Source of the DNA: Gillisia lutea | GTDB taxonomy: Bacteria; Bacteroidota; Bacteroidia; Flavobacteriales; Flavobacteriaceae | Assembly: GCF_021568705.1 (NCBI RefSeq) | Contig: NZ_JAKGTH010000006.1 | Span: forward strand, 868,001 to 932,000 | Length of the DNA stretch: 64,000 nt | Direction of reading: 5' to 3' | In this document: positions 24,397 to 42,975 of the stretch, piece after piece | Position numbering within the stretch: position 1 is the stretch's first letter | How the letters are laid out: each line of letters starts with the position of its first letter | Notes under the pieces: generated by a model | What the model was told of the DNA's origin: nothing | Seen by the model: only the letters and a program-made list of their open reading frames with translations | Databases searched by the model: none | Translations under genes and position numbers: made by a program

Positions 24397-25088
24397 TATT
24401 TAAAACTGTATTTGAAGATCCAACCTAAAATTTTAATTCCGGCAAAGATAGCTCCTTTTATAGTCCCCGAAACCTTTGAAACTCCTATTCTGTTTTTGTA
24501 ATGTACAGGAATTTCTACATAGCTAAGCTTTTGCTTGATCGCTTTTAGTTGCATCTCTACCGTCCAGCCATAGGTTTTATCCTGCATTTCCAGATCCAGT
24601 AATTTTTGATACTTAATGGCTCTAAACGGGCCCAAATCTGTGAATTTTGCTCTGAACATAAGACGCATCAAATTGGTAGCCAGCCAATTTCCAAAGATCT
24701 GAGGGAGGGTCATAGACCCTTCTTCTCGCCATTTTTTCACCCTTGCACCTACCACAAAATCTATATTATCTTTAAGAATGGGTTTTAGGAGGGTATCCAT
24801 TTCAGAAGGATAATCGCTATAATCACCATCGAGAAATACCACTATATCTGGTAGGATTTCTTGAGAGGCTATATATTCCATACCTTTTAGACAGGCATAT
24901 CCATAACCTTTTCGTTTTTCCTCTAAAACAGTGGCTCCAGAATTTTGCGCAACCATCCCGGTAGAATCGGTCGAATTATTGTTTACCACAATAACTTCAG
25001 TAATGTTTTTTGGAATTTCAGAAATAACCTTCCCTATGGAAGCTTCTTCATTAAAGGCAGGGATAATAACTTTTATAATTAATTCCAT
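24396..25088 (-). CDS. Dolichyl-phosphate-mannosyltransferase-like family 2 glycosyltransferase
   Basis: 230 residues. The N-terminal IIPAFNEEASIGKVISEIP and VVNNNSTDSTG mark the nucleotide-binding part, and FLDGDYSDYPSE holds the metal-binding DxD. The absence of multiple membrane segments and the overall length match polyprenol-phosphate glycosyltransferases, which move a sugar from NDP to a lipid carrier. It is coupled by one base to the membrane glycosyltransferase downstream, so the two may use one lipid-linked sugar pool. Confidence 0.88.
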   Translation of the reverse strand: MELIIKVIIPAFNEEASIGKVISEIPKNITEVIVVNNNSTDSTGMVAQNSGATVLEEKRKGYGYACLKGMEYIASQEILPDIVVFLDGDYSDYPSEMDTLLKPILKDNIDFVVGARVKKWREEGSMTLPQIFGNWLATNLMRLMFRAKFTDLGPFRAIKYQKLLDLEMQDKTYGWTVEMQLKAIKQKLSYVEIPVHYKNRIGVSKVSGTIKGAIFAGIKILGWIFKYSFK

Positions 25089-25156
25089 TCAAATATGTTG
25101 ACTCTTGGCGAGCTAAGGTTCATGTTTAGTTCGCAAAAGAAAGAATTTAATTACAA

Positions 25157-26740: not shown

Positions 26741-26774
26741 GGGGAGTATTTATGCGGTGCTTTATTAAATTGGT

Positions 26775-28064
26775 TTAAACGCTAACTTGATATTCTTTTT
26801 GAAATTTATCAAAAATTGAAGCTTCATAGCGTTTATAGAATTCGGGATCAAAATTAGCTTCTTTTAAATGTGAGATCACATACCCTACAGAGCGTTCATC
26901 ACTCAGCCATGTGTCAAATTTTTCATGACGCATTCTAATTCCAAAGGTGTTAATTCCTAAAAACTTATTTGAAATTGTATCATATGAAATGGTGAGAAAC
27001 TTTTTATTATCCTGATGAACCCAGTGAAAATGCGTCTCACTCTCTTTAGGCTTATTAAATACCCAACCATACGTTTGATATTCGATATCAAAGAATTTAG
27101 CCGAATTAAACCAATGTCCGGGGTTATATTCTCTCTTATTTCCAGTAAGAGTTTGTGCTACAGTTTCTCCCATCATTCTCCCGGTATACCACACAGCCTC
27201 AATAGACTTTCTTTGCCCAATAGGTTGTCGTTGCTGTACGCAATCTCCAATGGCATATACATCTTTGATATTGGTTTGCAAAAAGCTATTCACTAGAATC
27301 CCTTTATCAATCTCTAAAGCTGTATTCCTTAAAAAATCTACATTTGGGTGTACACCGGCACAAAGCCCTACAAGCTCGCATTCTATTTCTTCTCCGGTCT
27401 TGGTTACGATCGATCTTACATTACCCTCTTTATCTCCAACTATTTTATCAAGCTCAGTTCTATGTTTTATCTCCACGCCATGCGAAGTAATATGTTTCGA
27501 GATAAGGTCGGCATTTTTTTGTGGAAGGATACCCGACCAAAAGCCTTCTTCTCTAATTAAAAAAGTAACCTGAATATTTCTTGTTAATAGCATCTCTGCC
27601 AATTCTACACCAATCAAGCCACCTCCAATTATCACTGCCTTTTTACAATTCTTTGTGTTTTCCTCCAGCAATTCTAGGTCTTGTTTGGTAACCAAACCCT
27701 GTACTCCTTTAAGCTCCTGACCTTCCCAGCCAAATTTATTATGAATAGAACCCGTTGCTAGTATCAGTTTGTCGTAGTTCATACTTTGTTTGGAGGAAAA
27801 ATGCAGTGTCTTATTATCAAAATCTACGCTTTCTACCCACTCCTTCTTTAATTCGATCCTGTTTTTTTCCCAAAACCAATCTTCATAAGGTTTTAAATGT
27901 TCCCATTTCATGTGTCCCATATATACATACATAAGAGCGGTACGAGAAAAGAAATGCTCACTTTCCGCAGAGATAACTGTAATTCGTTTATCTGAATTCT
28001 TTCTAATGTGGCGTGCTGCGGTAATACCCGAGATTCCGTTTCCAATAATAACAATATGTTCCAT
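26775..28064 (-). CDS. FAD/NAD(P)-dependent oxidoreductase (rubredoxin-reductase-like)
   Basis: 429 residues, pyridine nucleotide-disulphide oxidoreductase class I/II fold without a redox CxxC. FAD is bound by IVIIGNGISGITAARH at residue 4, NAD(P) by AVIIGGGLIGVELAEM near residue 147, and the second FAD motif is VYAIGDCVQ near residue 268. The C-terminal 130 residues are longer than in simple NADH oxidases. It probably feeds electrons to the membrane ferredoxin encoded 34 bases downstream. Electron donor and acceptor are inferred from position. Confidence 0.88.
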   Translation of the reverse strand: MEHIVIIGNGISGITAARHIRKNSDKRITVISAESEHFFSRTALMYVYMGHMKWEHLKPYEDWFWEKNRIELKKEWVESVDFDNKTLHFSSKQSMNYDKLILATGSIHNKFGWEGQELKGVQGLVTKQDLELLEENTKNCKKAVIIGGGLIGVELAEMLLTRNIQVTFLIREEGFWSGILPQKNADLISKHITSHGVEIKHRTELDKIVGDKEGNVRSIVTKTGEEIECELVGLCAGVHPNVDFLRNTALEIDKGILVNSFLQTNIKDVYAIGDCVQQRQPIGQRKSIEAVWYTGRMMGETVAQTLTGNKREYNPGHWFNSAKFFDIEYQTYGWVFNKPKESETHFHWVHQDNKKFLTISYDTISNKFLGINTFGIRMRHEKFDTWLSDERSVGYVISHLKEANFDPEFYKRYEASIFDKFQKEYQVSV

Positions 28065-28270
28065 GTGGATGTTTAAAGAGTAATTGAGATGAAAAAAACA
28101 TGTCGATTGGTCGAAGCTAACTATATTAACTTATACAATAATATGCATATAAAATCTGCTTTTTGTTAAAACTGCTGGGGATTACACTTTGCAATTAAAA
28201 AGATGAAATTATCTCTTAACTTTAAAAGCAATTAATGTATTCATCCAGAACCTATAATAAAGGAAAGTTA

Positions 28271-29314
28271 ATGAATTTTAAGGTTTTAAGAAGTTTAGAG
28301 ATACCTGTCTTTTGTATACTATTATTGGCAGTTATACATTCCTGTCAGTCACCACAACAGCTGGAAGAAAAGATTAACGGGATAAGTCTTGTGGCGTCAA
28401 GAGACTCGATACTGCCGGGACAAGTATTGCCAATAAAGGAAATTCATGCCAATGCAGTAGCTTTAATGCCTTTTGGTTTTTTGGAGAAGTTGGATAGCCC
28501 TCATTTAAAATTTAATATGGAAAGACAATGGTTTGGAGAGCGCGAGGAGGGAGTTAGAAAAAGTATAAGGATGCTACGTACTAATAAAATGAAAGTAATG
28601 CTGAAACCCCAAATTTGGATATGGCGGGGAGAATTTACCGGAGATATTAAAATGAATTCTGAAGCCGATTGGAAGGAATTTGAGAAGAACTATAGAAATT
28701 TCATTCTTTTATATGCGCAAGTAGCTGCAGAAGAAAAAGTGGATATTTTTACCTTAGGCACCGAGCTCTACGGATTTGTGCATGAAAGACAGAATTTCTG
28801 GAGTGTTCTAATAGCTGATGTTAGGAGAATTTACAAAGGACAACTCACTTATGCCGAAAATTGGGATAAGGTGGAGAAAGTGACGTTTTGGAGGGAGTTG
28901 GATTATGTGGGAGTTGATGCTTATTTTCCTTTGAATAGTGAAAGATCTCCCGAAGTAGAAAAGCTAAGAAGTGCTTGGCAAAGTTATAAAGTTAAGCTGG
29001 AAGATCTCTCGCATGAAGTGGAACAACCCATCCTGTTTACGGAGTATGGGTATAGAAATACCGATTACGCAACCGAGTATCCCTGGGAATCATCCCGGGA
29101 AACTAATAGCTTTAATGATGATTTACAGGCTAATGCACTTACGGCACTTTACGAAGAGTTTTGGAAAGAAAACTGGTTTGCAGGCGGCTTTCTTTGGAAA
29201 TGGCATCAAGACCATGAAAATGCGGGCGGATTGGGGAATAACCAGTTCACACCGCAAAATAAACCGGCTCAGGAAGTGGTGAAAAAGTATTACGGGAACA
29301 CTCTTATTAACTAA
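28271..29314 (+). CDS. GH113-like glycoside hydrolase lipoprotein
   Basis: 347 residues. The start at 28271 gives a clean lipoprotein signal (hydrophobic ILLLAVIHSC, lipidated Cys near residue 25); the ATG at 28235 would add 12 polar residues before it. The rest is a TIM barrel of the GH113/phage-tail-glycosidase type: KPQIWIWRGEFTGD, acid/base Glu in TLGTELYGFV, GVDAYFPL, and the probable nucleophile Glu in LFTEYGYRN, with WKWHQDHENAG at the end. Known GH113 members are beta-mannanases. It is the only plus-strand gene between 22 and 41 kb and overlaps the end of the TIGR04283 gene by 8 bases. Confidence 0.83.
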   Translation: MNFKVLRSLEIPVFCILLLAVIHSCQSPQQLEEKINGISLVASRDSILPGQVLPIKEIHANAVALMPFGFLEKLDSPHLKFNMERQWFGEREEGVRKSIRMLRTNKMKVMLKPQIWIWRGEFTGDIKMNSEADWKEFEKNYRNFILLYAQVAAEEKVDIFTLGTELYGFVHERQNFWSVLIADVRRIYKGQLTYAENWDKVEKVTFWRELDYVGVDAYFPLNSERSPEVEKLRSAWQSYKVKLEDLSHEVEQPILFTEYGYRNTDYATEYPWESSRETNSFNDDLQANALTALYEEFWKENWFAGGFLWKWHQDHENAGGLGNNQFTPQNKPAQEVVKKYYGNTLIN

Positions 29315-29990
29315 GTTTCTTCTTATAATATTGATATAACTCTTCGGGTGTAGCCCCTTTCATCTTTTTAAGATAAAGGAGTGCAAAAAAGTACTGTAAT
29401 TTCCAGATCCCTACTTTTTCATATCTACGAGCTGAAGTAGTTAGCCATTTTGGAATAATTGTAAATGATTTTCTCTTATATAATTTGCCAATAAGATCAT
29501 TGTCTTCAAAGACTATATAAATTTCATCAAAACCGCCAATTTCATTAAACAGTTCTTTAGTGATAAATAAAGACTGATCTCCACCTCGGCAAGCTTTATG
29601 ATTAATAGTAGTAAACCATCCCATTAAATTGAGCCACCAATGGTTCTTATCAAATTTCATTCGAAAGCAGCCAGCTTTATTACCTGTACCTACCTGATTT
29701 ACGATAGCTGAATCAAAATGAAGAGGAGGAAAGCTGTCGGCATGTAAAAAGTAAAGAATTTTAGAAGTGGCAGCAGCAGCACCGGCATTCATCTGTTTTG
29801 CTCGTCCTTTTTCAGAATAGATAAAGCGTACCGCCGGGGTCTTTCTCACAATTTCCTTGGTGGCATCGGTACTTCCCCCATCTACCACAATAATTTCAGT
29901 TATGTTATTAGATGAAAATTCCTGTATATGCTGAAGTAGTCTCGGGAGTTGAGCTTCTTCATTATATACAGGAATTATAATACTTATCAT
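29307..29990 (-). CDS. TIGR04283-family (arsenosugar-associated) glycosyltransferase
   Basis: 227 residues, family 2 GT-A fold: SIIIPVYNEEAQLPRLLQ at the start, VVDGGSTDATKEI, then the family-specific GRAKQMNAGAAAATS, LHADSFPP (DxD-like) and the later WWLNLMGWFTTINH. This subfamily is annotated as arsenosugar biosynthesis glycosyltransferase because of its co-occurrence with ArsS; its reaction has not been shown as far as I know. It is the last gene of an eleven-gene minus-strand operon, starting 1 base after the stop of the DUF547 gene. Confidence 0.88.
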   Translation of the reverse strand: MISIIIPVYNEEAQLPRLLQHIQEFSSNNITEIIVVDGGSTDATKEIVRKTPAVRFIYSEKGRAKQMNAGAAAATSKILYFLHADSFPPLHFDSAIVNQVGTGNKAGCFRMKFDKNHWWLNLMGWFTTINHKACRGGDQSLFITKELFNEIGGFDEIYIVFEDNDLIGKLYKRKSFTIIPKWLTTSARRYEKVGIWKLQYFFALLYLKKMKGATPEELYQYYKKKLS

Positions 29991-29991
29991 C

Positions 29992-30798
29992 TTACTTAGG
30001 CTCGTTTAAAGACCAGTCGTATTCCTTATAAGTTATTTTTGCTGAGGCTTTTATCTTCACGTTTGAATAATGGTTGATATAATCTATTACACTACCACCT
30101 TCTTTGAAATCTTTTTTATACCAGTCGAAAATAGAACTCAGTTTAACCGAATTCTCTAAAATTATATTTTTATCAGAATTGATGAATTCTTTAGTGGCAG
30201 TTTCTAATTGCTCATTGATCTTGGCTGCAGTATAAGCCTCATTTAATAGCTTCGGACAAGAATAGGATGCACAGTTAATTGCAAAGTGTATTCTAGGATC
30301 GTTCATTTTTCTAAGTATACTATTCTCAATCCCTCCTAAAGACATTTTTACATCGCCAATATCTACAATATCTTTTGTCCATGCGCCGTTTATGTCTTTA
30401 ATACTCTTAATCGGATAGTTTTCAATAATCAGCTTTACGGTATATGCATTGTAGATGTTTATATAATAGGCAAGTTGCTCCTGAACTGACCAGGTTTTAG
30501 AGGGTTTATTTTCAGAAAGCATTTCCAGATATTCCTTCAACTTTACCTCATCTTTTTTGAAGCCTTTATAATCTACCAGCCCATCTTTTGAAACATGCTT
30601 TTTTAATAATGCTGTCCACGTGCTATGATCTAAATTTACCTGAGAGTTCGCAGTAGAGGAGGTCAAATCTTCCCCAACCTTTGCTGTGGGAAGGCCTTTG
30701 TCATTAAGTCCAGCAGCCGATAATAGAGTGCAACCATTCAAGGTGTAAAAGCAAAGTGAAAATACTAATAGCATGCTACCAAAGAGTGCCTTTTTCAT
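29992..30798 (-). CDS. DUF547 lipoprotein
   Basis: 268 residues. A lipoprotein signal (LVFSLCFYTLNGC, Cys at residue 23) targets it to an envelope membrane. The DUF547 domain follows: LAYYINIYNAYTVKLI near residue 107 and INCASYSCPKLLNEAYT near residue 175, with two conserved Cys. DUF547 is of unknown function and has been suggested to resemble papain-like or transglutaminase-like folds. It occurs in the arsenosugar-type operon between the phosphorylase and the TIGR04283 glycosyltransferase. Confidence 0.86.
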   Translation of the reverse strand: MKKALFGSMLLVFSLCFYTLNGCTLLSAAGLNDKGLPTAKVGEDLTSSTANSQVNLDHSTWTALLKKHVSKDGLVDYKGFKKDEVKLKEYLEMLSENKPSKTWSVQEQLAYYINIYNAYTVKLIIENYPIKSIKDINGAWTKDIVDIGDVKMSLGGIENSILRKMNDPRIHFAINCASYSCPKLLNEAYTAAKINEQLETATKEFINSDKNIILENSVKLSSIFDWYKKDFKEGGSVIDYINHYSNVKIKASAKITYKEYDWSLNEPK

Positions 30799-30833
30799 AT
30801 TGAATGGGTTTAAAAAGATTGGCTATTTTAAAT

Positions 30834-31646
30834 TTATAACTGAGCTATCAGTTCCTTGAATATCGTTATAAGCTGAGGTTCTGCTTTGTGAGCCATAGCA
30901 ATGATCTCACTAATTTCTACCGGCTTCAAATTGTCTGGGTCACCTTCATCGGTGATCACCGAGATTGCTGATACGGGTAGGTTTAAATGATTAGCCACAA
31001 TAACTTCGGGCACAGTACTCATTCCAACAGCGTCTGCACCAATTAGTTTAAGATAACGATACTCTGCTCTTGTTTCCAGTTGTGGGCCCAGTACCGAAGC
31101 ATATACCCCTTTATGTAATTTGATGTTATTATTTTTTGCAATAGCTTCTATGTTCTGGTTCATTTCTGTATTGTAAGGAGCGCTCATATCAACAAAACGT
31201 TCACCTAAATGTTCTACTCCTAAAAATGCCAATGGCGATCCTCCCTGCAGGTTAATATGGTCGTCTATAAGCATTAGTTCTCCTTTTTTGAAATCGAGAT
31301 TGATAGATCCTGACGCATTGGAGACTAACAATTTCTTGATACCCAATTTTTCCATAATACGTACAGGATAGGTCACATCTTGCAGCGTATAGCCTTCATA
31401 TAGATGAAAACGGCCTTGCATTACTACCACTTTTTTTCCGGCTAAATTTCCAAAAATAAGCTTGCCTTTATGAAATTCTACCGTTGCGGTAGGAAAGCTA
31501 GGAATATGGTTATAACTAACTTCTGCTAGAATTTCTATTTCATCTACCAGCTGTCCCAGTCCTGTGCCTAAAATGATACCCACTTCAGGACTGTCAAATC
31601 CTTTTTCAATTAGATAATCTGTTGTTTCTTGAATTCTTTTTATCAT
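30834..31646 (-). CDS. Purine nucleoside phosphorylase, trimeric type, with Asp at the base-selecting site
   Basis: 270 residues of the trimeric PNP/MTAP family: GIILGTGLG (phosphate), VSNASGSIN, GPQLETRAEYR with E191 matching human Glu201, GMSTVPEVIVA with M209, and then ITDEG with D233 at the place of human Asn243. In human PNP changing Asn243 to Asp is known to allow adenosine. Here this suggests an adenine nucleoside as substrate. In the operon context it could remove adenine from the 5'-deoxyadenosyl product proposed for ArsS. It overlaps the TIGR04282 gene by 4 bases. A general salvage role cannot be excluded, since the Asp may be common in this phylum. Confidence 0.9.
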   Translation of the reverse strand: MIKRIQETTDYLIEKGFDSPEVGIILGTGLGQLVDEIEILAEVSYNHIPSFPTATVEFHKGKLIFGNLAGKKVVVMQGRFHLYEGYTLQDVTYPVRIMEKLGIKKLLVSNASGSINLDFKKGELMLIDDHINLQGGSPLAFLGVEHLGERFVDMSAPYNTEMNQNIEAIAKNNNIKLHKGVYASVLGPQLETRAEYRYLKLIGADAVGMSTVPEVIVANHLNLPVSAISVITDEGDPDNLKPVEISEIIAMAHKAEPQLITIFKELIAQL

Positions 31647-32266
31647 GATGTTATGTGTTGGAAGAAATGTTGAAAATCTTCATGTTCTTTTATATCGCTG
31701 TAATAATCTACATCATTACGTGTTTCCAGTAATTTTGTGTTATTCAAACCAAGATTTTTAAGCGTGTCGGTTAAAACTGTAGCTGTTCCCCATTCTTTTC
31801 TCTGGAAGACTTTTGTGTTTAATTTTTTCATTCCTAGAAGATAGTATCCACCATCTTCTGCAGGACCTAACACGAAATCTTTATCATCTAAAGCTTTAAA
31901 GGCATTTTCAATATCGGTTTGATCCATGTCGTACATGTCACTTCCAATAATGATAATCTTCTCGTATCCATTTTTAAAGCCCTCCTCGAAGGCATGTTGC
32001 ATACGCTCTCCAAGATCTCTTCCTTCTTGTTTGCATTTCAAATAAATATTAGAGTTCCATATATCGTCTTCAAATATCTTTTCAGAATAATGGACCTCTT
32101 TAGCTACATTAAGATCCTTGGTGATTTCCAAGGTATGAGCAAGTAAAAATTTATAGATGTCTAAGGCGGTTTGTTCTCCCACATCTTTTGCCAATCTGGA
32201 TTTTACTTTTCCCAGCTCGGGGTTACGGGTAAAAATGAGTAGTAATTCTTTAGAAGTTGTAATCAA
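31643..32266 (-). CDS. TIGR04282-family (CofC-like, arsenosugar-associated) transferase
   Basis: 207 residues of the CofC/MobA-like GT-A fold: LLIFTRNPELGKVKSRLAKD at the start, IIIGSDMYDM in the middle and LGPAEDGGYYLLGMKKL, which is the family hallmark. CofC relatives are nucleotidyltransferases, so it may activate a sugar phosphate or transfer a sugar; the family is annotated as arsenosugar biosynthesis glycosyltransferase from genome context. It is coupled by 4 bases to the nucleoside phosphorylase, whose sugar-1-phosphate product would be a natural substrate. Confidence 0.88.
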   Translation of the reverse strand: MITTSKELLLIFTRNPELGKVKSRLAKDVGEQTALDIYKFLLAHTLEITKDLNVAKEVHYSEKIFEDDIWNSNIYLKCKQEGRDLGERMQHAFEEGFKNGYEKIIIIGSDMYDMDQTDIENAFKALDDKDFVLGPAEDGGYYLLGMKKLNTKVFQRKEWGTATVLTDTLKNLGLNNTKLLETRNDVDYYSDIKEHEDFQHFFQHITS

Positions 32267-32281
32267 AACAATAAAATTTTA

Positions 32282-32785
32282 TTAGTATACTTTCTCACCA
32301 TTGGTTAAATATTTAGACCAGTGTTTTGAAAAAGCGTGAATTTTCTCGGTTTCCTTTCCATTAGCATCAAAAACAGCATATCCCTTGTTCTTCCATTCAA
32401 AAATACCACCATAAAGATTTCTAATATTTGTATAACCGGCGTTTTTCAGTTTTTCTGAAATGGTTTCAGAGCGAATTCCCAAAGAACAATATACTACGAT
32501 TAAGGCTGATTTATTTGTAATTAAATGTGAAATTTCCTTTGTTGAAAAAGTGGAATATCCTACAAAAAGGGCTTTTTTAAGATGACTCACCTCAAATTCT
32601 TCCTCTTCACGGGCATCCAATACTACAACATTAGCATCTGAATGCAGCATTTTTAATTCTTCCACAGAAATATATGGCGTAGAATGTGAATTGTATTTAG
32701 AGAGTATTTTTTCAATTGAACTCTGGGCCTGGCCAACAGTCAAGTTCAGGAAAAATATAAGAAATAGTAATTTTTTTAAATTCAT
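32282..32785 (-). CDS. Periplasmic rhodanese-like protein
   Basis: 167 residues. A signal peptide (KKLLFLIFFLNLTVGQAQ, cut after about residue 20) exports it. The rhodanese domain covers residues 35-140, with VVLDAREEEEF and the active loop YCSLGIRS, C100 being the expected persulfide Cys; the CxxGxR form is that of sulfurtransferases. It is placed between the metallophosphoesterase-like and TIGR04282 genes of the arsenosugar-type operon. Possible roles are sulfur transfer or reduction/binding of an oxyanion in the periplasm, but neither is shown. Confidence 0.9.
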   Translation of the reverse strand: MNLKKLLFLIFFLNLTVGQAQSSIEKILSKYNSHSTPYISVEELKMLHSDANVVVLDAREEEEFEVSHLKKALFVGYSTFSTKEISHLITNKSALIVVYCSLGIRSETISEKLKNAGYTNIRNLYGGIFEWKNKGYAVFDANGKETEKIHAFSKHWSKYLTNGEKVY

Positions 32786-32844
32786 AAAATTAAAGGTGTG
32801 CGCTATATTTACGATTAAAACCAGTACTTGGATGTAAACGATAC

Positions 32845-33669
32845 TTAAAACTTGATAGGTTTACCCTGTAATTCACTTTCTGCTATTGGAAGAATCTCCG
32901 TATTATCCCAGATTCCGGTTTTTAACGTTTGAGCATATTCTTTAGGTAAATTATTCTTCAACATTAGTTCACTTGCGAGTTCATGATCATAACTAAAACT
33001 GAAGTGCTTATAAATAGGTGTTTTGCGTTCATCTAAAATAACAGCCCAGACCTTTGCCAACCCGTCGTTGGCAGGCATTCCAATAACCCCAGGATTTATC
33101 CAAATTTTATCAGCTTTTACATCGGTAAAAGGCAATCCGCAGTGTCCTGCTACAATTACATCACAGTTCAAGGCATCAAAAGAAGCTTTTTTGACCTCCC
33201 ATGAGGTAGAACTAAATATGAATTCTGATACATTGCTGTAAGCACCGTGTACTACGCCAATCGTTTTTCCAGCATAATCGAATTGTATATTTCTGGGAAG
33301 AGTTTTTATCCATTCAATAGCATCGTTTTGCAAATGCGCTTTGGCAAAAGGGTACCAGAGTTGCGAGAGGTCATCGCATTTAGAACCTTCCCTAAAGTCG
33401 CAGCCACAATCTTCTTTATCTTCGGCTAACTGAATCTCTACATTTCCCACAATACTTTTTGCTCCCCATTTTTTAAAAAGGGAAATAGTCTGCTGAGGTT
33501 GGCCGCAGTACCCGATAATATCTCCAGTACAAATACAATTGGAGGGAGCAACACCTTCTTTATTAGCAATCGATATTAGTGCTTCCAATGCCTGTAAGTT
33601 GCTGTAAACGCCTCCAAACAAAAGCACTTTACCCTTAAGTTGGCCAAGATGTTCTATAGGTTTATCCAT
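32845..33669 (-). CDS. Metallophosphoesterase-like protein with eroded first motif
   Basis: 274 residues from the ATG at 33669, which lies inside the symporter gene (16-base overlap); the longer frame from 33813 adds non-homologous residues that only mirror the symporter. The fold is that of YfcE/MJ0936 phosphoesterases: CTGDIIGYCGQP, VGNVE, VVHGAYSN, VAGHCGLPF and INPGVIGMP. However the usual DxHGN of motif I is GGVYSN (residues 19-24), losing the first Asp and His ligands, GNHE/GNCD is GNVE and GHTH is GHCG. A Cys-rich insert DCGCDFREGSKC follows. Phosphatase activity is therefore doubtful; a binding role or a different metal site is possible. Confidence 0.85.
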   Translation of the reverse strand: MDKPIEHLGQLKGKVLLFGGVYSNLQALEALISIANKEGVAPSNCICTGDIIGYCGQPQQTISLFKKWGAKSIVGNVEIQLAEDKEDCGCDFREGSKCDDLSQLWYPFAKAHLQNDAIEWIKTLPRNIQFDYAGKTIGVVHGAYSNVSEFIFSSTSWEVKKASFDALNCDVIVAGHCGLPFTDVKADKIWINPGVIGMPANDGLAKVWAVILDERKTPIYKHFSFSYDHELASELMLKNNLPKEYAQTLKTGIWDNTEILPIAESELQGKPIKF

Positions 33670-35003
33670 TTTGGAATTAAAAATAATAAGATACATGAAA
33701 TTATTCCCCAAACATTGATCCATAATAGTTCCGCATATGCCCCGGAGGAGAATATGAGTGATTGCGGAAATAGGTTGAAAACCAGTAGGAACCCAAAAAC
33801 CAATCCACAGCATACACTCAAATAGAAACTTATTTTAGGAACCTTCATTTTCCAGAACAGGAAAACCGGGGTAAGGCCTATCACCATGGTACCACTAATT
33901 GTAGTAGCAGATAATATTTCGGCATTTAGAAACACCGGAATCGTACCTAATACTGCTACGATGATCATGGCAATCCTTCCGAATTTTACAGTTGGTTTTA
34001 TTTTAAGATCTACGGCCAGTAATTTAGAGGAAGATGAAAATGTTGAATCTAAGGTGGATGCTGCTGAAGTGATCATTATAAAGTTGATGACTAATAGAAT
34101 CACGACTCCAAAAGCTTTTCCAACTTCTACCGCAGCCTGCCCCTGCATTCCTTCTCTTTGAGCATACACTCCAATAATACTGAACAGCACAATGCAAATT
34201 CCCCCAAAAACGCCGGCCATTAAAAAACTTCGTAAAGTTGATTTCGGGCTGCTAATAAAGCCTCTGTCGGTTAGCACGGGGTCATGAAACGGATAACTAA
34301 AAGATTGGATAATGGCTGCAAATAGTAAATTCATTCCTGTTGCCATGGTCCAACTTCCCGAAGTTGCCACTTCTTTCACGCTAATCTCACCTACATTAAA
34401 AATATTCCATAGAATAATGCATAACAAAATAGCGAAAAGTCCCATTTGTATCACATCCGTAAAAATGGAACTGCTTAGTCCGCCTTTTAAAGCATATGCC
34501 AAGGTTAGTATAGTAAAAGCAATTATAGCCCAATAGAATGAAGAACTCCCCTGATCACCGAAATAGGTGCCAATTACAATGGTGTTAGACCATACTTCAT
34601 TGAATAATCGAATACTTATGAGAATAGAAAAAAGTGCTACCGCCCCCGTGCCAAATTTCGATACCAAAAATTGATGAATACTTGTAAAACTTCCTCGGGT
34701 TCTGATAAGGTAGATCAAAATTCCTGCTATGGCGAAGGAAAGATAATACCCTGCATAGGCCACTCCACCAACGATCCCAAACTCCAAGCCTAAATTCGCG
34801 GCATTGGTAATGCTTTTTGCAAAGATCCAGGAAATTATAAGGCTCCCGGTGAGCATAGCAGTATTAGGTACTTTGTTTTTATAAGAGGCTTTAAAGAATT
34901 GCTGGGCTGTTTTTGCTAAAGGAGAAAGAATTAGAAGCGCAATGCTGGAAAACAGCATTAACCACCATTGCCAAAAACTGGTTTCTAAGGAAAGTAACTC
35001 CAT
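33654..35003 (-). CDS. Sodium:solute symporter family protein
   Basis: 449 residues with about thirteen membrane segments, SLC5/SSS family. Landmarks include the early TAMLTGSLIISW, the VGGVAYAGYYLSFAIAG helix pair, and the unwound segment TSAASTLDSTFSSSSKLLA near residue 320. It would move a small solute with sodium across the inner membrane. It follows a SusC/SusD pair by 54 bases and is translationally coupled to the phosphoesterase-like gene, so its solute is probably the one handled by SusCD and this operon. The substrate is not readable from sequence. Confidence 0.88.
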   Translation of the reverse strand: MELLSLETSFWQWWLMLFSSIALLILSPLAKTAQQFFKASYKNKVPNTAMLTGSLIISWIFAKSITNAANLGLEFGIVGGVAYAGYYLSFAIAGILIYLIRTRGSFTSIHQFLVSKFGTGAVALFSILISIRLFNEVWSNTIVIGTYFGDQGSSSFYWAIIAFTILTLAYALKGGLSSSIFTDVIQMGLFAILLCIILWNIFNVGEISVKEVATSGSWTMATGMNLLFAAIIQSFSYPFHDPVLTDRGFISSPKSTLRSFLMAGVFGGICIVLFSIIGVYAQREGMQGQAAVEVGKAFGVVILLVINFIMITSAASTLDSTFSSSSKLLAVDLKIKPTVKFGRIAMIIVAVLGTIPVFLNAEILSATTISGTMVIGLTPVFLFWKMKVPKISFYLSVCCGLVFGFLLVFNLFPQSLIFSSGAYAELLWINVWGIISCILLFLIPKWINL

Positions 35004-35057
35004 TACTTCTTGAACTTTTTTAATGAAAGCACATAAGGCTCGAATATCATAATTTAC

Positions 35058-36512
35058 TTATTCGCTATCCCACCAAACGGGGAAATTAATACTGTTTTGA
35101 TCTGTGCTTCCGGCTGCAGCTTCATAGTTTTGTAAGTTAAGAGCTGCTTCCTCTGTTGGATAAGGTATTCTTATTGGGAATTGCCCCTCATTCAAACTAG
35201 CTGAAATCGCTTTTAAATTTGGAAAACCTGTGCGGCGGTACTCTATCCATCCCTCGTACCCGTTTATCATATTGGCTATCCATTTTTGAGTAATGATCTT
35301 TTCCAGATTATCTTCTGCACCTAATTCATAGGCAGCACTTGCCTTGAGGTAATTTGCAGGAAGAGGTGTGTGCCAGTACTCGAAGGCTTGGCTTACCCCA
35401 AGTTCATAGAGCCTTTTAGCATCAGCAGATATCAAATTCTTTTCTGCAGCTTCCGCCAGTAAAAGGTTGGTTTCCCAAGCGGTTAAGAAATTGGCATCCA
35501 GCATTGCTGTATTTTCTCTGAAAATTGTTCCAGCTCTCGAATAATCGGCGGGAGAAATGGAGGTTTGTGAAGCATCAATTCCATTTAATAATCCATTGAA
35601 AACCTCTGGATTATTATCTGTTGTACGGAATAGCACTCCAATTCGTGGATCATCAAGACCAGTTAGAATCTCTTCCATGGTTTCAGCCATCACAAAATTA
35701 TTGAAGTCGCCCACTCTAAGTTGCGCCATCCTGAAGCTATTGGGCTCCCCAGCTGTAAAATTAAAACTGGCATTTTGGGAATTCAATTGTATATAATTCG
35801 ACTGATTATATATTTCCTGCAATTGACCTGAAACATCCACCTTGGAGGAAATTCGCATTAGGTGCTTTATCTTTAAGGAATTTGCAAATTTTATCCACGC
35901 TTGAAGGTCGCCATCAAATAGGATGTCTCCTTCCAATTTAATAGCACCCTCATAATTTTCTAATGCGATAATTCCTTTGTTCAAATTATCTAAAATTCCT
36001 CCTTCGGCTAAATAAATATCTTCCTGAGGATCATATTTTGGAGTAGTTGTAAGTTCCTTTCCTTTGAAAGCTTCAGAATATGGTACATCTCCAAATAAAT
36101 CGGTAAGCGAAGCAGTTATGTATGCTTTCATTATTAAGGCAGGGCCTTCATACACTTTAAAAGCTTCGGTTTCGCGGGTCATATTTAAAATGATCTCGTT
36201 ATCTCGAAGATTGGTATATAGAACAGGCCATGGATTTCCTCCTAATTGTGGAGATTTAAGCGCATGCCGGTCAAATAGATTAAAATCGAGTGCGGTTAAA
36301 TATTGGCCTAATAAATTTCCGGCCACAAAACCTTCGTAAGACATTTGTTCCCCATAATCGTAGATTACTTGCCTAAGCAATAAGCCTGGCTGAACTGATA
36401 CGGGCGTATTAGGGTTGGTATTGATCTCTTCAAAATTTTTTGAGCAAGAAGTGAAGAGTGTAAGCCCAAATATTAGTATAAATGTATATTTTCTCATCTT
36501 GTTAGTATTCAA
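35058..36512 (-). CDS. SusD/RagB-like outer-membrane lipoprotein
   Basis: 484 residues. Lipoprotein signal with lipidated Cys near residue 23 (FGLTLFTSCSKNFEEIN), then a SusD-like helical body with the typical NTNPNTP start, DLFGDVPYSEAF near residue 140 and WIEYRRTGFPNL near residue 425. SusD proteins form the lid of a SusC channel and bind the ligand on the cell surface. A start at the second Met (36497) is equally possible. It is unusual that no glycanase, sulfatase or other polysaccharide gene accompanies the pair within this operon. Confidence 0.92.
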   Translation of the reverse strand: MNTNKMRKYTFILIFGLTLFTSCSKNFEEINTNPNTPVSVQPGLLLRQVIYDYGEQMSYEGFVAGNLLGQYLTALDFNLFDRHALKSPQLGGNPWPVLYTNLRDNEIILNMTRETEAFKVYEGPALIMKAYITASLTDLFGDVPYSEAFKGKELTTTPKYDPQEDIYLAEGGILDNLNKGIIALENYEGAIKLEGDILFDGDLQAWIKFANSLKIKHLMRISSKVDVSGQLQEIYNQSNYIQLNSQNASFNFTAGEPNSFRMAQLRVGDFNNFVMAETMEEILTGLDDPRIGVLFRTTDNNPEVFNGLLNGIDASQTSISPADYSRAGTIFRENTAMLDANFLTAWETNLLLAEAAEKNLISADAKRLYELGVSQAFEYWHTPLPANYLKASAAYELGAEDNLEKIITQKWIANMINGYEGWIEYRRTGFPNLKAISASLNEGQFPIRIPYPTEEAALNLQNYEAAAGSTDQNSINFPVWWDSE

Positions 36513-36538
36513 AAGTTTTGCTTCAGAATATGTTAGAG

Positions 36539-39500
36539 TTAAAAGTTTATACCCGCTTTAAATCCAATGCTTCGGGTGGTTGCATAAGACATATCTTCCA
36601 CTCCGCTTACAAATCCCTGCCCCTGAACTGCCAGTTGTTCAGGATCGAAATGAGGGATCTTACTAAATACGAATAAGTTTCGCCCTATTAAAGACACATT
36701 CATGGAGGCACCATTTTTCAATCCTAAGGCGCCGTCTTTTAAACTGAAATCATAGCCAAGTGCAAGTTGTCGTAATTTTAAATATGAAGCATCATAAGTA
36801 TTATTTGCCTCGTGATTCCTATCGTAATATTGACGATAGTAAGATTCGGCACTCACAGCTGTAGTGTTGGGGATGTAAATTGGATTGTTTGAAGTTCCTG
36901 AATTTACCACACCTTTTGGAACGATCCCTTCTTCAGGTCGAAGTTCGGTTTCTTTTAATTGGCCGCCCACTGCGGCTAGAGCCAAGGTTCGCGAGATCAA
37001 AATTCCGCCTTGTCGCCAATCGAATAAAAAGCTGAGGTCCCAGTTTTTATATTGAAACTGATTATTGAAGCCTAATATGAAATCGGGATTATAATTTCCT
37101 AATTTTTCAAGGTTGTTATCTGCAATATACCTCCCTTCAGAAGTGAGTATGAAGTCTCCCTTATCATTCTTCAAATATCCGGTGCCATAAAGGTCACCAA
37201 TCTCGCCTCCTTGTTCCACCTGCAGCCAGACCGTTTGATCGGGATTATCGTAAACTCTGGAATATGCCAGAGTTAACCGTCCGGCTTCCTGAGGTAATTC
37301 TGTTACTCTCGATGTGTTTTTGCTAAAGTTGAAAGTTGATTTCCATAGGAAATTGATAGTTTTTATTGGGGTGATTCCAGCGATGATCTCTATTCCCTGT
37401 GATCTCACTTTTCCTGCGTTTACCACCTGTTGCCTGTAACCTGAGGAGATGCCAATAGGTAAGGATAGAATCTGATCTTCGGTAAGGGCATTATAATAGG
37501 TAAAGTCAAAATTTAACCTGTCTTTAAAAAACCTTATATCGGCACCCACTTCGTAAGAAGTAGTCCGCTCCGGCCTTAGATTAGGATTTGAAATAGTATT
37601 TCCATCGCTAAAAGTAGGCTGTGAATTATAGGGGGTTTGCGCTACAAAAGCTCCGGTAGTTTGATACGGATTGGTATCATTACCTACCTGTGCCCAACTT
37701 GCCCTTGCCTGAAAGTATGAGAACACTTTTGGTAAGGCTACTACATTAGAAAGGATAAAACTTCCCGAAACCGACGGATAAAAGAAGGAGACATTTGCAA
37801 CAGAGGTAGGGGAGGCCAACGCACTGGACCAATCGTTTCTCCCGGTAATATCTAGAAAGAGGAAATTTTTGTACCCGAGTTTAGCAATTCCATACAGGCT
37901 GTTAATACGTTTACGCGATTCAAATTCAAATACTTCAATAGGAGAAGCTGCATTAGAAAGTTTAAAGATTCCCGGCTGTGCCAAAGTGGTGGTTTGTGCT
38001 TGAGAAGTTGAAGCTTTTTGATCCAATCTACTTCCTCCAAAGGAAAGATCAGTTGAAAAATTCCCGAAGGAATTGTAGTAGTTTAAAAGGAAATCGGTGT
38101 TGATCTCTCTAAAGAAAACATCATGCTCGGCATAGGCTCCATTTTTAAATCGGTTGGAACTGAAAGCTCTTTTCAGCTGCCTTTTTTCATTAGAATAATC
38201 CATTCCTGAGCGAAGGCTTAAGCTAAGATGTTCATTAAACTGCTGAGTAACCGCGATATTTCCAAATATCCTGTCCCTATTAAAGGAATTGGTGTTTTCT
38301 TTTAATATGAAATAAGGATTATCAAAATAAGTATAATTATAGGAATATTGCTGCACTCCTTCTAAGCCGGGTTGCCAGTAATCTTTAAGGTTTTTGATAT
38401 TCAATGATCGGGGTCCCCAGGCTACCAGAGAATAATTCACGTTCTCGGAACCGTAGCCGTTAGAAGGCCTGTTGTCGCTTCCGGAATTCACATAATTAAT
38501 ACTCGCGTTAACCTTAAGTTTGTCTATTGGCCGAAAGTGGAGTTTTGCAGCGACTGTTTGCCTGTTCAGGTTAACGCCCGGAATAATGGATTCACTTCTA
38601 AGATCAGTGAAAGATAACCTGTAGTTCCCTGTATTGAAACCTGAGGAGATAGCCACATTGTTAATGGTAGTAATTCCGGTTTGATAAAAATCTTTCAAAT
38701 TATCGGGATGGGAATTAAAGGGAGTAGGAGTAATTGGCAGTCCTCCGTGTACCGATGTATCTCCTCCGCGAACTACAGTTCCATCGGCCAAGCTTACTGG
38801 GCTGTCAAACTGTGGAATAAGAATTTCCTGATCCAATCTCGGGCCCCAGCTATAGGTGATAAGATCATTCACGCCGCCACCTAAGCCGTTCACAAAAGCG
38901 AATTCTCCTGAGTTACCCTGTCCGTATTTATTTTGAAATTCAGGTAATTGAAAGGGAGAATCTACAAACAGGCTAGTGTTAATGCTAATTCCAAGGTCTT
39001 TTGTTTTCGTGCCATCTTTGGTGTTTATTATGATAACGCCATTCGAAGCTCGGGATCCGTATAATGCGGCTGCATTGGCTCCTTTTAACACAGACACCGA
39101 AGCGATGTCATCGGGATTCACTTCCATCGCACCATTCCCAAAATCTATTTCCTGAAATCCGGCAGCAGCTTCATTTGTAAAGTTAAGCACCGAATTATTA
39201 TTGATGGGAGTTCCATCTACAATGAATAAAGGGTTGTTGTTAGAGAAAGAAGCTTCTCCACGAATTGTGATCTTAGAACTGGATCCGGTACCTGTTGCTC
39301 CCTGGCTAATTGTGACTCCTGCTAATTTTCCGCTGAGATTATCCAGGAAATTTACCGCTTTTACTCTTGATATTTCTTTCTCCTGTATCTTTTGTACAGC
39401 ATACCCCAGTTCTTTAGTCTCCCGTTTAACTCCTAAAGCCGTTATTACCACTTCATTTAAACCGGTAGCCGAAATAGAAAGTGTTATATCGAGGGTCCAG

Positions 39501-39757
39501 CGTCCGTCTATTTCAATGAGTTTGGTCTCAAAGCCCAAGGAGGAGAATTCTAGAGTCCCCGTTGAGGTGGGAATAGACAATTCATAAACTCCATTCTCAT
39601 TGGAAATAGTTCCCAAAGAGGTGTTTTTCAGAATTACACTTACAAAAGGAATAGCTGTTCCCGCGGCATCGGTAACTCTTCCATTAATAATATGTTGAGA
39701 GAAAACATTTATGAATGCGAAAAAACAGAAGCTAAGGCAGAGGTAGAATTTCTTCAT
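36539..39757 (-). CDS. SusC/RagA-type TonB-linked outer membrane transporter
   Basis: 1072 residues, full length. Signal peptide at 1-20 (ends FINVFSQ), a carboxypeptidase-like beta-sandwich with INGRVTDAAGTAIPFVSVIL (23-42), a plug domain with VTISQGATGTGSSSKITIRG and LFIVDGTPINNN near residues 150-190, then a 22-strand barrel ending in an aromatic residue (GFKAGINF). It imports a ligand with energy from TonB together with the SusD downstream. It lies 22 bases from the ArsS gene in the same operon, which is why its cargo may be an arsenic compound or the sugar part of one; this is inference. Confidence 0.94.
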   Translation of the reverse strand: MKKFYLCLSFCFFAFINVFSQHIINGRVTDAAGTAIPFVSVILKNTSLGTISNENGVYELSIPTSTGTLEFSSLGFETKLIEIDGRWTLDITLSISATGLNEVVITALGVKRETKELGYAVQKIQEKEISRVKAVNFLDNLSGKLAGVTISQGATGTGSSSKITIRGEASFSNNNPLFIVDGTPINNNSVLNFTNEAAAGFQEIDFGNGAMEVNPDDIASVSVLKGANAAALYGSRASNGVIIINTKDGTKTKDLGISINTSLFVDSPFQLPEFQNKYGQGNSGEFAFVNGLGGGVNDLITYSWGPRLDQEILIPQFDSPVSLADGTVVRGGDTSVHGGLPITPTPFNSHPDNLKDFYQTGITTINNVAISSGFNTGNYRLSFTDLRSESIIPGVNLNRQTVAAKLHFRPIDKLKVNASINYVNSGSDNRPSNGYGSENVNYSLVAWGPRSLNIKNLKDYWQPGLEGVQQYSYNYTYFDNPYFILKENTNSFNRDRIFGNIAVTQQFNEHLSLSLRSGMDYSNEKRQLKRAFSSNRFKNGAYAEHDVFFREINTDFLLNYYNSFGNFSTDLSFGGSRLDQKASTSQAQTTTLAQPGIFKLSNAASPIEVFEFESRKRINSLYGIAKLGYKNFLFLDITGRNDWSSALASPTSVANVSFFYPSVSGSFILSNVVALPKVFSYFQARASWAQVGNDTNPYQTTGAFVAQTPYNSQPTFSDGNTISNPNLRPERTTSYEVGADIRFFKDRLNFDFTYYNALTEDQILSLPIGISSGYRQQVVNAGKVRSQGIEIIAGITPIKTINFLWKSTFNFSKNTSRVTELPQEAGRLTLAYSRVYDNPDQTVWLQVEQGGEIGDLYGTGYLKNDKGDFILTSEGRYIADNNLEKLGNYNPDFILGFNNQFQYKNWDLSFLFDWRQGGILISRTLALAAVGGQLKETELRPEEGIVPKGVVNSGTSNNPIYIPNTTAVSAESYYRQYYDRNHEANNTYDASYLKLRQLALGYDFSLKDGALGLKNGASMNVSLIGRNLFVFSKIPHFDPEQLAVQGQGFVSGVEDMSYATTRSIGFKAGINF

Positions 39758-39779
39758 TCGTTAATTAAAGGTGAGGGGA

Positions 39780-40838
39780 TTAAGCAACAGAGCCCTGACA
39801 GCTACTTCCTGCACCGGCGGTACAACCATAGCAATGTTGAGAGATAATTATATCTCTGTCATTTAATAAGTCTTCATTATACTGGCTGATGTGTTTAACT
39901 TTACTGGCAACCTTCAGTTCCAGCATTTGGTTAAAGTCACAATCGTATAACCAGCCATCCCAACTTATAGAAATGGTATTGGTGCACATCACGTTCTCCA
40001 CCGCAGTTGGGTTATAGGCATCTACAAGAGCATACATATAATCTTCATAATTCTCGGAAGCAATTAAATATTCCAAAAATCTGCTAATCGGAAGATTGGT
40101 AATAGCGAAAAGGTTATTGAAGTCTATGTTGAAGTCTTCTTTTAGAGCAACTTTAAAATCGTTTTCCAATAAATTTTGATCTGTTGGAAGAAATGCTCCT
40201 GAAGGGTTATATACCAAATCTAATTTTAAACCTGTGCCTTCCTGAGAATAACCTACTGCGTTTAGCATTTGGAGCGCTTTAATAGATTTGTCGAACACAC
40301 CATCCCCACGTTGTTTGTCGGTTTTATCACGTTTATAGAAAGGAAGGGAAGAAACTACATGCACTTTGTGCTTTTTAAAGAATTCTGGCAGGTCGTGATA
40401 TTTTTTGTTGGCTAAAATGATGGTAAGGTTAGAGCGAACAATAAAATCTTTGATTCCTGCTTTAGAGGCCTCTTCAACGAACCATCTGAAATTAGGATTC
40501 ATTTCAGGGGCTCCTCCCGTAAGATCCAGGGTGTGGGCACCAGTAGTTCTAATTACTTCCAAACATTGCAGCATGGTTTCCTTGGTCATGATCTCTTTCC
40601 TATCTGGTCCAGCATCTACATGGCAGTGAGAGCACACCTGATTGCACATATACCCTAAATTTAGTTGGAGTATCTCCAATTTTTTAGGCTTTAAGGGGAA
40701 GTGGTTGGTTTGGGCAATTTTGTCCTTAAAAAGAGGAAGTTTTCCTTTTTTAAAGACACCATTACTTAGAAATTCAAGTTGATTGGCCGGGCTGGAAAGA
40801 TCATCTTTCCTTGCGGCCAAGGATTTTAATAATGCCAT
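39780..40838 (-). CDS. arsS: Radical SAM protein ArsS (arsenosugar biosynthesis)
   Basis: 352 residues. The radical SAM cluster motif is C65/C69/C72 in YMCNQVCSHCHVDAGP, followed by the SAM-binding TGGAPEMNP. The C-terminal domain is Cys-rich, ending HCYGCTAGAGSSCQG (C336, C339, C347), as in the TIGR04167 family. ArsS is reported to attach a 5'-deoxyadenosyl group from SAM to dimethylarsenic, giving the precursor of arsenosugars. The enzyme acts in the cytoplasm. It is second in the operon, 60 bases after the AhpD-like gene. No arsM methyltransferase is found in this window, so dimethylarsenic must come from elsewhere. Confidence 0.9.
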   Translation of the reverse strand: MALLKSLAARKDDLSSPANQLEFLSNGVFKKGKLPLFKDKIAQTNHFPLKPKKLEILQLNLGYMCNQVCSHCHVDAGPDRKEIMTKETMLQCLEVIRTTGAHTLDLTGGAPEMNPNFRWFVEEASKAGIKDFIVRSNLTIILANKKYHDLPEFFKKHKVHVVSSLPFYKRDKTDKQRGDGVFDKSIKALQMLNAVGYSQEGTGLKLDLVYNPSGAFLPTDQNLLENDFKVALKEDFNIDFNNLFAITNLPISRFLEYLIASENYEDYMYALVDAYNPTAVENVMCTNTISISWDGWLYDCDFNQMLELKVASKVKHISQYNEDLLNDRDIIISQHCYGCTAGAGSSCQGSVA

Positions 40839-40898
40839 AACAGGTGTACTTCAATAATTATAATTTTTAATCATATATGCAGGTTGATTAAAAATTAA

Positions 40899-41234
40899 TT
40901 ACATGCTTAATTTCTCGTACTTATTCATCATTTGCACTCCATGTACCAGGGTTGCTCCACTTTTAATTGCAGCTCCTACATGAACTGCTTCCATCATCTC
41001 TTCTTTTTCAATTCCTCTTTGCAATCCGTCTTTTGTATAAGCATCTATACAATATGGGCACTGCACAACATGAGAAACCGCTAATGCGATCAAGGATTTT
41101 TCCCTTGCGGAAAGAGCACCTTCTTCGAAGACTTTTCCGTAGTAATCAAAAAATTTCGCACCAAGTTCTTCGTTCCATTCAGAGATATTTCCAAATTTTC
41201 TTAAATCGGCTGGATCATAATAGGTTTTAGACAT
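40899..41234 (-). CDS. AhpD-like arsenosugar-associated CxxC protein
   Basis: 111 residues of the carboxymuconolactone decarboxylase/AhpD fold. The redox pair is C59/C62 in VVQCPYCIDAY, with the following conserved His and LVHG region near residue 100. This is the TIGR04169 subfamily, which co-occurs with ArsS and is annotated as peroxidase-like. It may reduce an arsenical or protect the radical SAM step; this has not been shown. It is the first gene of the operon. No -7 box was recognised in its upstream region. Confidence 0.9.
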   Translation of the reverse strand: MSKTYYDPADLRKFGNISEWNEELGAKFFDYYGKVFEEGALSAREKSLIALAVSHVVQCPYCIDAYTKDGLQRGIEKEEMMEAVHVGAAIKSGATLVHGVQMMNKYEKLSM

Positions 41235-41955: not shown

Positions 41956-42975
41956 ATGAGAATTGATGTTAAAACGTTACCTGTTAATGAGATAATACAG
42001 GATATAGCGGAAAATTTAAATGCACCTATACATGATGGAAGCGGAGAACTTTCAATTAAAATACCGGAGGAAATAGGCGAGGGTTATGTAAGAGCTTCCG
42101 GCTTTGATTCGGGTATTGGGATTATTTCCTACAATTGCAAATTCTATAAAGATGTAGAGATACATTTTTCATTAGATACCGTCCATCCTTTAAAATTCAT
42201 TTTTTGTTCTGAAGGGAGTGTAGCCCATTCATTTCAGCAAAGTGAAGATCTTCATACTATCGAAACCTACCAGAACATCATTGTTTCCAGTAGTGGTTAT
42301 AACGGTCATGTATTATATTTTAAAGCCAATGTTAGAACACATGTTTCCAGTCTGGAAATCATAAGGTCTACTTTTTCTCATCGTAGTAACTACGATTTTA
42401 AAGATCTTGACCCTACCCTTAAGGAACTTTTTAAAGATGCGGTTTCAAAGCAGCAGTTCTTTTATCAGGGAAATTACAGTATAAAAGCTGCAGATCTAAT
42501 GGATGAGATGGATACTAAAGATTTTACCGGCTTTCTAAGGTCCCTATATTTAGAAGGTAAATCTTTTCAGATGTTGGTTATTCAAATAGATCAATATCAG
42601 GATGATGAATCGGAGGATAAGTTGCCGAAGATTTTAAGAAAATCTGATATTCAAAAAGTGGACTATGTTACAAAGCGAATAATTGGCGATATGGGAAGCA
42701 ATTTAACGGTAGAGAGGCTCGCCAAAGAAGCTGGTACCAATGTAAACAAGTTGCAGGAAGGCTTTAAATATGTGTATGATCTTACCGTGAACAAGTACAT
42801 TCAGCATGTAAAGCTGGAAGCCGCCAAGGATATGATGATGAATACCGAAAAGAATATATCCGAAATAGTAGTAGCCATAGGCTTGAATAATCGCAGCTAT
42901 TTTTCTAAGATCTTCAAGGAAAAATATGGGGTTAATCCTAAATACTTTCTTAAAACACGGAAGAATGACATTTAA
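41956..42975 (+). CDS. AraC-family transcriptional regulator
   Basis: 339 residues. The C-terminal 100 residues form the double helix-turn-helix: NLTVERLAKEAGTNVNKLQE (first) and ISEIVVAIGLNNRSYFSKIF (second), followed by GVNPKYFLKTR. The N-terminal 220 residues are a sensing domain without a recognised ligand motif. It is encoded alone, upstream of a sensor kinase gene (106-base gap) and facing away from the arsenosugar-type operon. Regulation of that operon is possible but not shown. Confidence 0.9.
   Translation: MRIDVKTLPVNEIIQDIAENLNAPIHDGSGELSIKIPEEIGEGYVRASGFDSGIGIISYNCKFYKDVEIHFSLDTVHPLKFIFCSEGSVAHSFQQSEDLHTIETYQNIIVSSSGYNGHVLYFKANVRTHVSSLEIIRSTFSHRSNYDFKDLDPTLKELFKDAVSKQQFFYQGNYSIKAADLMDEMDTKDFTGFLRSLYLEGKSFQMLVIQIDQYQDDESEDKLPKILRKSDIQKVDYVTKRIIGDMGSNLTVERLAKEAGTNVNKLQEGFKYVYDLTVNKYIQHVKLEAAKDMMMNTEKNISEIVVAIGLNNRSYFSKIFKEKYGVNPKYFLKTRKNDI

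Follow-up and report, generated by a model that had tools for sequence, protein, structure and literature searches.

A SusC-SusD-symporter module tied to ArsS in Flavobacteriaceae and a possible role for it in the import of methylated arsenic

The window, a stretch of 64,000 nucleotides from Gillisia lutea (contig NZ_JAKGTH010000006.1), holds an arsenosugar-type operon in which four genes stand between the radical SAM enzyme ArsS and a rhodanese-like protein. They encode a SusC-type outer-membrane transporter, a SusD-like lipoprotein, a sodium:solute symporter (SSS) and a calcineurin-fold phosphoesterase-like protein (MPE). These four genes form a recurring module tied to ArsS, and the linkage is strong. 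The arsenic methyltransferase ArsM is depleted where the module is present. On balance, and by a narrow preference, we read the module as a dedicated uptake block of the arsenosugar pathway. Its cargo would be a dimethylated arsenical, with dimethylarsinate (DMA(V)) the likeliest, and it could stand in for ArsM.

Linkage of the module to ArsS

An earlier note on this DNA had proposed that the SusC/SusD pair (SusCD) and the symporter are part of the arsenosugar system, and comparison of genomes supports the proposal strongly. In a fixed family sample of 397 genomes, 288 held ArsS and 51 held the symporter at a threshold of E 1e-100; 50 of these 51 also held ArsS (Fisher p 9e-7, kinship uncorrected). 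The sole exception, genome G242, carries a symporter 60% identical to that of the module in a phenylacetate gene cluster with neither MPE nor SusCD. All six genomes with the symporter in a phylum sample, the window's genome being one of them, held ArsS, against 121 of 296 overall. In one genome (G464) the module lies on a contig lacking ArsS.

A converse search used a profile of six symporter copies, all ArsS-linked, against a single genome from each of 84,980 species, and the best 80 of the 464 stretches encoding a relative, all distinct loci, were read. MPE was encoded in 80/80 of these, ArsS in 76/80, and SusC and SusD each in 75/80; because the 80 are the closest relatives, the ArsS count leans towards linkage. 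The four loci without ArsS comprise two cut contigs (L137 and L186), a short contig (L132) and one locus with the module alone (L202). The short contig, from Salegentibacter tibetensis, has the module between reverse transcriptase-like and integrase-like genes, named by eye (L132, 180-13379), and looks as if mobile.

From the side of ArsS, the window proteins were used to query 100 neighbourhoods of about 20 kb. Of these, 60 came from the family, each from a different genus among the matches listed of the 288, and 40 from the phylum sample, five of which were from the same family. The whole block adjoins ArsS in five of the 100, placed as in the window in L086, L087 and L121, upstream of ArsS in L112, and after ArsS on the opposite strand in L115. 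Weak SusC and SusD matches in L056 (87 and 177 bits) were taken as a different SusCD pair, not the module. Across 76 loci, distances between module proteins track ArsS distances, with r 0.87 for SusC, 0.84 for SusD and 0.83 for the symporter; the purine nucleoside phosphorylase (PNP) of the operon tracks them about equally well, with r 0.79 over fewer pairs, and MPE gave a lower 0.63. The module is thus neither confined to this strain nor moving independently of arsS, the outcome of the gene-order test that the earlier note had put forward.

The module varies in arrangement: it occurs within a long operon, upstream of ArsS, after ArsS on the opposite strand, or standalone. Twelve loci (L112, L183, L192, L194, L195, L207, L227, L228, L233, L237, L239 and L241) carry an open reading frame (ORF) in which MPE is fused to the AhpD-like thiol protein of the operon; the domains were checked with family models in L112 and L194, and in 12/12 ArsS comes next after the fusion. 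The nine fusion loci whose stretch reaches far enough share the order T4282b-SusC-SusD-SSS-MPE/AhpD-ArsS (the stretch of L112 stops within SusC, and those of L183 and L192 start at the symporter), and the module therefore occurs as a compact ArsS locus too. TIGR04283 was present in 23 of the 24 genomes searched, which included some with the compact locus. T4282b is a second DUF2064 protein, whose gene lies either between those of ArsS and SusC or ahead of SusC in 72/80 loci. It was rejected as a necessary part of the module, as the window is without it and none was found in 8/80 loci, some of them cut. Eight T4282b copies that were compared have an NKGSP motif near the C-terminus, and the copy of L087 (5919-6602) has an N-terminal part without a match to TIGR04282.

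Bacteroidota very commonly carry SusCD pairs, and only 50 of the 288 ArsS genomes have the symporter, as might be expected if an ordinary nutrient SusCD locus had been inserted in the operon by chance. This explanation is contradicted by the association in 50/51 genomes and 76/80 loci, by the several arrangements, by the gene fusion, and by the presence of the block with ArsS adjacent in two further families of the class (L112 and L115), and we regard it as very improbable.

Depletion of ArsM in the presence of the module

No ArsM is encoded in the operon. For the NF038099 type of ArsM the best match in the window's genome scored 34 bits, with a cut-off of 400, and for canonical ArsM (NF008823) there was no match at E 1e-25. 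NF038099 ArsM was found in 226/397 family genomes. Among those with ArsS, it was present in 20/50 with the symporter and in 205/238 without (Fisher p 5e-11, kinship uncorrected). Canonical ArsM, where the NF038099 type was lacking, occurred in 1/30 genomes with the symporter, as a copy with an internal stop, versus 16/23 without it, the check having taken in 23 of the 33 such genomes. One ArsM kind or the other was therefore held by 21/50 genomes with the symporter versus 221/228 without; when all 10 left-out genomes are counted as lacking it, the difference still has p 5e-15. In a set of 54 genomes (49 reached via named module loci and five by G handles), NF038099 ArsM was found in 20. Gillisia limnaea DSM 15749 (L154) and Polaribacter filamentus (L153) are cultured strains that have the module and lack this ArsM. 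The idea that the module always replaces ArsM was rejected, given that 20/50 module genomes keep it.

Thirteen genera include ArsS genomes of both symporter states; seven of these differ in the expected direction, none in reverse, and six are ties (sign test 0.016). Pairs were also drawn from two trees with the same 129 rows, one of ArsS only and one of seven joined operon proteins, L132 and L202 being excluded for having no ArsS. On the joined tree, supported branches gave 15 independent pairs with contrasting module states, and the state changed at least 15 times on such branches. ArsM differed in the opposite direction in 10.5 of these pairs on average, in the same direction in 0 (all 200 pairings), and not at all in 4.5, with a median p of 0.001; in this tree two long rows (L034 and L036) are grouped and 22 rows are under half filled.

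The window's own genus, in which 3/16 sampled genomes have the symporter, allows a direct comparison. In G309 (L032), which has no module, the rhodanese gene begins 11 bases after ArsS, and ArsM lies between PNP and the DUF547 gene. Alignment of the junctions places the block of the window between ArsS and rhodanese, with PNP followed by DUF547 and no ArsM. A further genome of the genus, G111, is like the window, with the module present and ArsM absent.

To judge specificity, loci with a local PNP were compared: 67 of 71 full-length module loci and 49 of 62 non-module family loci. ArsM stands next to the module in 22/67, and is present in 47/49 of the non-module loci. ArsS, AhpD, TIGR04282, DUF547 and TIGR04283 showed no difference, so that from ArsS to TIGR04283, ArsM is the only gene depleted with the module. 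Two genes are commoner with it, those for rhodanese (66/67 vs 36/49) and for a fatty-acid-hydroxylase-like protein (54/67 vs 23/49). A GH113-family gene and an FAD gene, both located farther out, are seen less often in module loci, as expected when some 7 kb of module takes up room in a stretch whose length is fixed.

As only ArsM is depleted while ArsS and the later genes are kept, methylation would be the dispensable step, and the imported compound would lie between ArsM and ArsS, which points to a dimethylarsenical. The earlier note had suggested uptake or export of the arsenical, its precursor or its sugar; the depletion of ArsM alone sharpens this to the methylated precursor.

The same depletion bears on two other explanations. 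The module might import inorganic arsenate or phosphate, and possible genes for the supply of inorganic arsenic do occur within such operons. In L041 (5943-10268) a Pst-like phosphate ABC transporter, made up of a binding protein, two permeases and a PstB-like ATPase, lies between ArsM and DUF547 of an arsenosugar operon and adjoins a fatty-acid-hydroxylase-like gene; it is a candidate route of arsenate supply. In L243 (11787-12452), a module-bearing arsenosugar operon, an aquaporin-family gene (PF00230) that is perhaps an arsenite channel lies between PNP and ArsM. Inorganic arsenic, however, would still need ArsM, which is the missing gene, and L041 has ArsM and no module; import of inorganic arsenic or phosphate by the module is thus hardly credible. 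Alternatively, the solute might be a non-arsenical required by cells with ArsS, for example an acceptor of lipid or sugar type, or the ArsS of these hosts might act on another substrate. Retention of ArsM in 20/50 module genomes speaks for such a solute, yet it would leave both the specific depletion of ArsM and the MPE-AhpD fusion beside ArsS unexplained, and we consider it rather unlikely.

The operon and its proteins in the window

The eleven genes form an uninterrupted minus-strand run between 41234 and 29307 in which neighbours overlap or lie 1-60 bases apart, just as the earlier note had described. Of the family names given there, ten are borne out by family models or comparison, and that of the symporter is confirmed weakly. 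The run opens with the AhpD-like thiol protein (40899..41234; TIGR04169, 199 bits, cut-off 120), which has CPYC at residue 59, followed by ArsS (39780..40838; TIGR04167, 441 bits, cut-off 300), with CxxxCxxC at residue 65. The module follows with SusC, a TonB-linked transporter with plug and barrel (36539..39757; TIGR04056), SusD (35058..36512; PF12771; alternative ATG start at 36497), the symporter (33654..35003) and MPE (32845..33669). After it come the rhodanese-like protein (32282..32785; NF045521), whose N-terminus is signal-peptide-like, the CofC-like transferase TIGR04282 (31643..32266; 211 bits, cut-off 134), PNP (30834..31646; NF006054, 342 bits, cut-off 218), the DUF547 protein (29992..30798; PF04784), with a lipoprotein-like N-terminus, and the glycosyltransferase TIGR04283 (29307..29990; 247 bits, cut-off 182). 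The arsenosugar-cluster markers TIGR04282, TIGR04283, TIGR04169 and PNP are thus all near ArsS and over their cut-offs.

The symporter scored 22.7 bits against TIGR00813, below the cut-off of 184, and had no Pfam match; its ortholog in L115 passes PF00474. A profile of the symporter (A4) matched one solved sequence, that of SLC5A7 (9rws, E 2e-7). The ORF of MPE (32845-33813) overlaps the symporter gene, and its conserved part begins at about 33669. We take the motif residues of metallophosphoesterases to be metal ligands in this fold. MPE has lost the D and H of motif I, the H in GNH and, in GHxH, the second H. It keeps D50, N76, H141 and H176 and has five invariant cysteines, C45, C55, C88, C90 and C98; compared with 3rqz, it reads GGVYSN for SDVHAN, GNVE for GNHD and GHCG for GHTH. 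By this motif comparison, the full set of metal ligands of an active metallophosphoesterase is incomplete. The lost residues and the cysteines set MPE apart from SapH-type Ap4A hydrolase and related metallophosphoesterases (PDB 3qfm and 3rqz).

A divergent gene for an AraC-type regulator (41956..42975, plus strand; HTH_18) lies ahead of the run. It has an equivalent position in L032, L038, L055, L068, L222 and L223 and is a possible candidate for the regulator of the eleven genes. Promoter and terminator scans gave signals no more frequent than, or below, shuffled counts. At the other end, the GH113-family gene (28235-29314, plus strand; PF22612) is convergent with the run and overlaps the end of TIGR04283 by 8 bases; it flanks module-free ArsS loci too. 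Family-model scans found no glycosidase or lyase among the run's genes, that is, in the same transcription unit. The remark in the earlier note that no polysaccharide gene is present therefore holds inside the run and is not exact for its surroundings. Beyond the operon (22924-28064) are an FAD oxidoreductase, an Fe-S membrane protein and two glycosyltransferases, which are conserved in many Flavobacteriaceae ArsS loci.

The imported compound and what it would mean

If the module imports a dimethylarsenical, SusCD would carry it over the outer membrane, energised by TonB, and the sodium symporter over the inner membrane. MPE with its cysteines and AhpD with its CPYC motif might then bind the arsenical and reduce it to the trivalent form, after which ArsS would add a 5'-deoxyadenosyl group, PNP would remove adenine, and TIGR04282, TIGR04283 and the remaining proteins would join the arsenoribose to an acceptor. 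We infer the arsenical nature of the solute, its inward direction, the role of MPE, the reduction by MPE and AhpD, and all chemistry after ArsS. The 60%-identical symporter that sits among phenylacetate catabolic genes suggests a small organic anion as the class of solute. The earlier note had seen in this operon a whole uptake-and-modification system, and the tie between modification genes and module fits that view, with an arsenical solute and inward transport as its presumed parts. We would give even chances to the fuller proposal that SusCD and the sodium symporter are dedicated to an organoarsenical, such that these bacteria make arsenosugars from the methylated arsenic of others without an ArsM of their own, and that MPE, a degenerate phosphoesterase, has come to work alongside AhpD and ArsS by binding or reducing arsenic.

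The opposite direction of transport has some precedent, as arsenic operons commonly carry efflux genes, and the module could send out an arsenical or the end product. Characterised members of the SusCD and SSS types are importers, though, and export would leave the absence of ArsM unexplained, making it improbable.

A stronger alternative, though one we still hold unlikely, is that the module scavenges whole arsenosugars or arsenolipids released by algae, whose breakdown would yield dimethylarsenic for ArsS, or which would be the product itself. SusCD pairs usually take large ligands, which would suit such compounds. The named module hosts belong to Flavobacteriaceae genera, Polaribacter, Winogradskyella and Maribacter among them, and genera of this type are largely marine, which fits as well; the absence of ArsM fits equally well. 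However, ArsS is kept in 50/51 module genomes, and PNP, TIGR04282 and TIGR04283 are not depleted, from which the imported compound is expected to enter before ArsS and not after it. In addition, the module showed no glycosidase, and several catalytic residues are missing from MPE.

Several observations weigh against import of a dimethylarsenical in place of ArsM activity. ArsM is retained in 20/50 module genomes, so the module is more than a substitute for ArsM. The ArsS-only tree, with few supported branches, gave five pairs and no significant result (median p 0.125); pairs in the same direction averaged 0.0, though one occurred in 2/200 pairings. Among 23 of the 33 ArsS genomes with neither the symporter nor NF038099 ArsM, seven lack canonical ArsM too at the cut-offs used (G257, locus L068; G046, G063, G098, G268, G308 and G311), and this reading does not account for them. 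Because the symporter profile came from six copies that were all ArsS-linked, and the reading covered the 80 closest loci, the tie to ArsS may be looser among more distant relatives, as in G242. The symporter relative in the phenylacetate cluster is a single case. Four loci (L135, L193, L209 and L229) have the symporter and MPE right after ArsS and no SusCD. DMA is small enough for porins, so the presence of SusCD might mean that the ligand is larger.

Set beside known ArsM/ArsS arsenosugar clusters (TIGR04167, TIGR04169, TIGR04282, TIGR04283, NF038099), the window shares a single run of ArsS, AhpD-like, TIGR04282, PNP, DUF547 and TIGR04283 genes, often with rhodanese too, as in many Flavobacteriaceae loci. 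It differs in having no ArsM and in the added outer- and inner-membrane import module with its cysteine-bearing MPE. The SusCD polysaccharide utilisation loci of Bacteroidota likewise combine a SusC/SusD pair and an inner-membrane transporter in one run, whereas the partners here are the symporter, MPE and ArsS, not glycosidases, and SusD is of the PF12771 branch. A passage of PMC12159101, citing Cheng 2021, has ArsS adenosylating arsenic in the synthesis of oxo-arsenosugar, and one of PMC8552651, citing Xue 2019, has ArsM and ArsS acting together in arsenosugar synthesis in Synechocystis. For SAR11, uptake of 14C-DMA was assayed according to PMC6426599; this marine heterotroph takes up dimethylarsenic of phytoplankton origin, as the module hosts might. 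Unlike the module hosts, which would build arsenosugars, SAR11 is described there as oxidising dimethylarsenic, and the upregulated transporter named there is phnD. A search by title and abstract, with subscription papers mostly outside its scope, found no literature linking SusCD or SSS to arsenosugar synthesis.

The exchange of ArsM for an import module is the new point here. If our reading is correct, the module is a candidate importer for methylated arsenic, and arsenosugar makers would fall into two kinds of strain, self-sufficient and dependent. Arsenosugar synthesis in one organism would then be linked to arsenic methylation in another, with methylated arsenic as a traded building block. 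This would also provide a gene test for metagenomes, in which cells that rely on methylated arsenic from outside could be recognised by having ArsS and the module but no ArsM.

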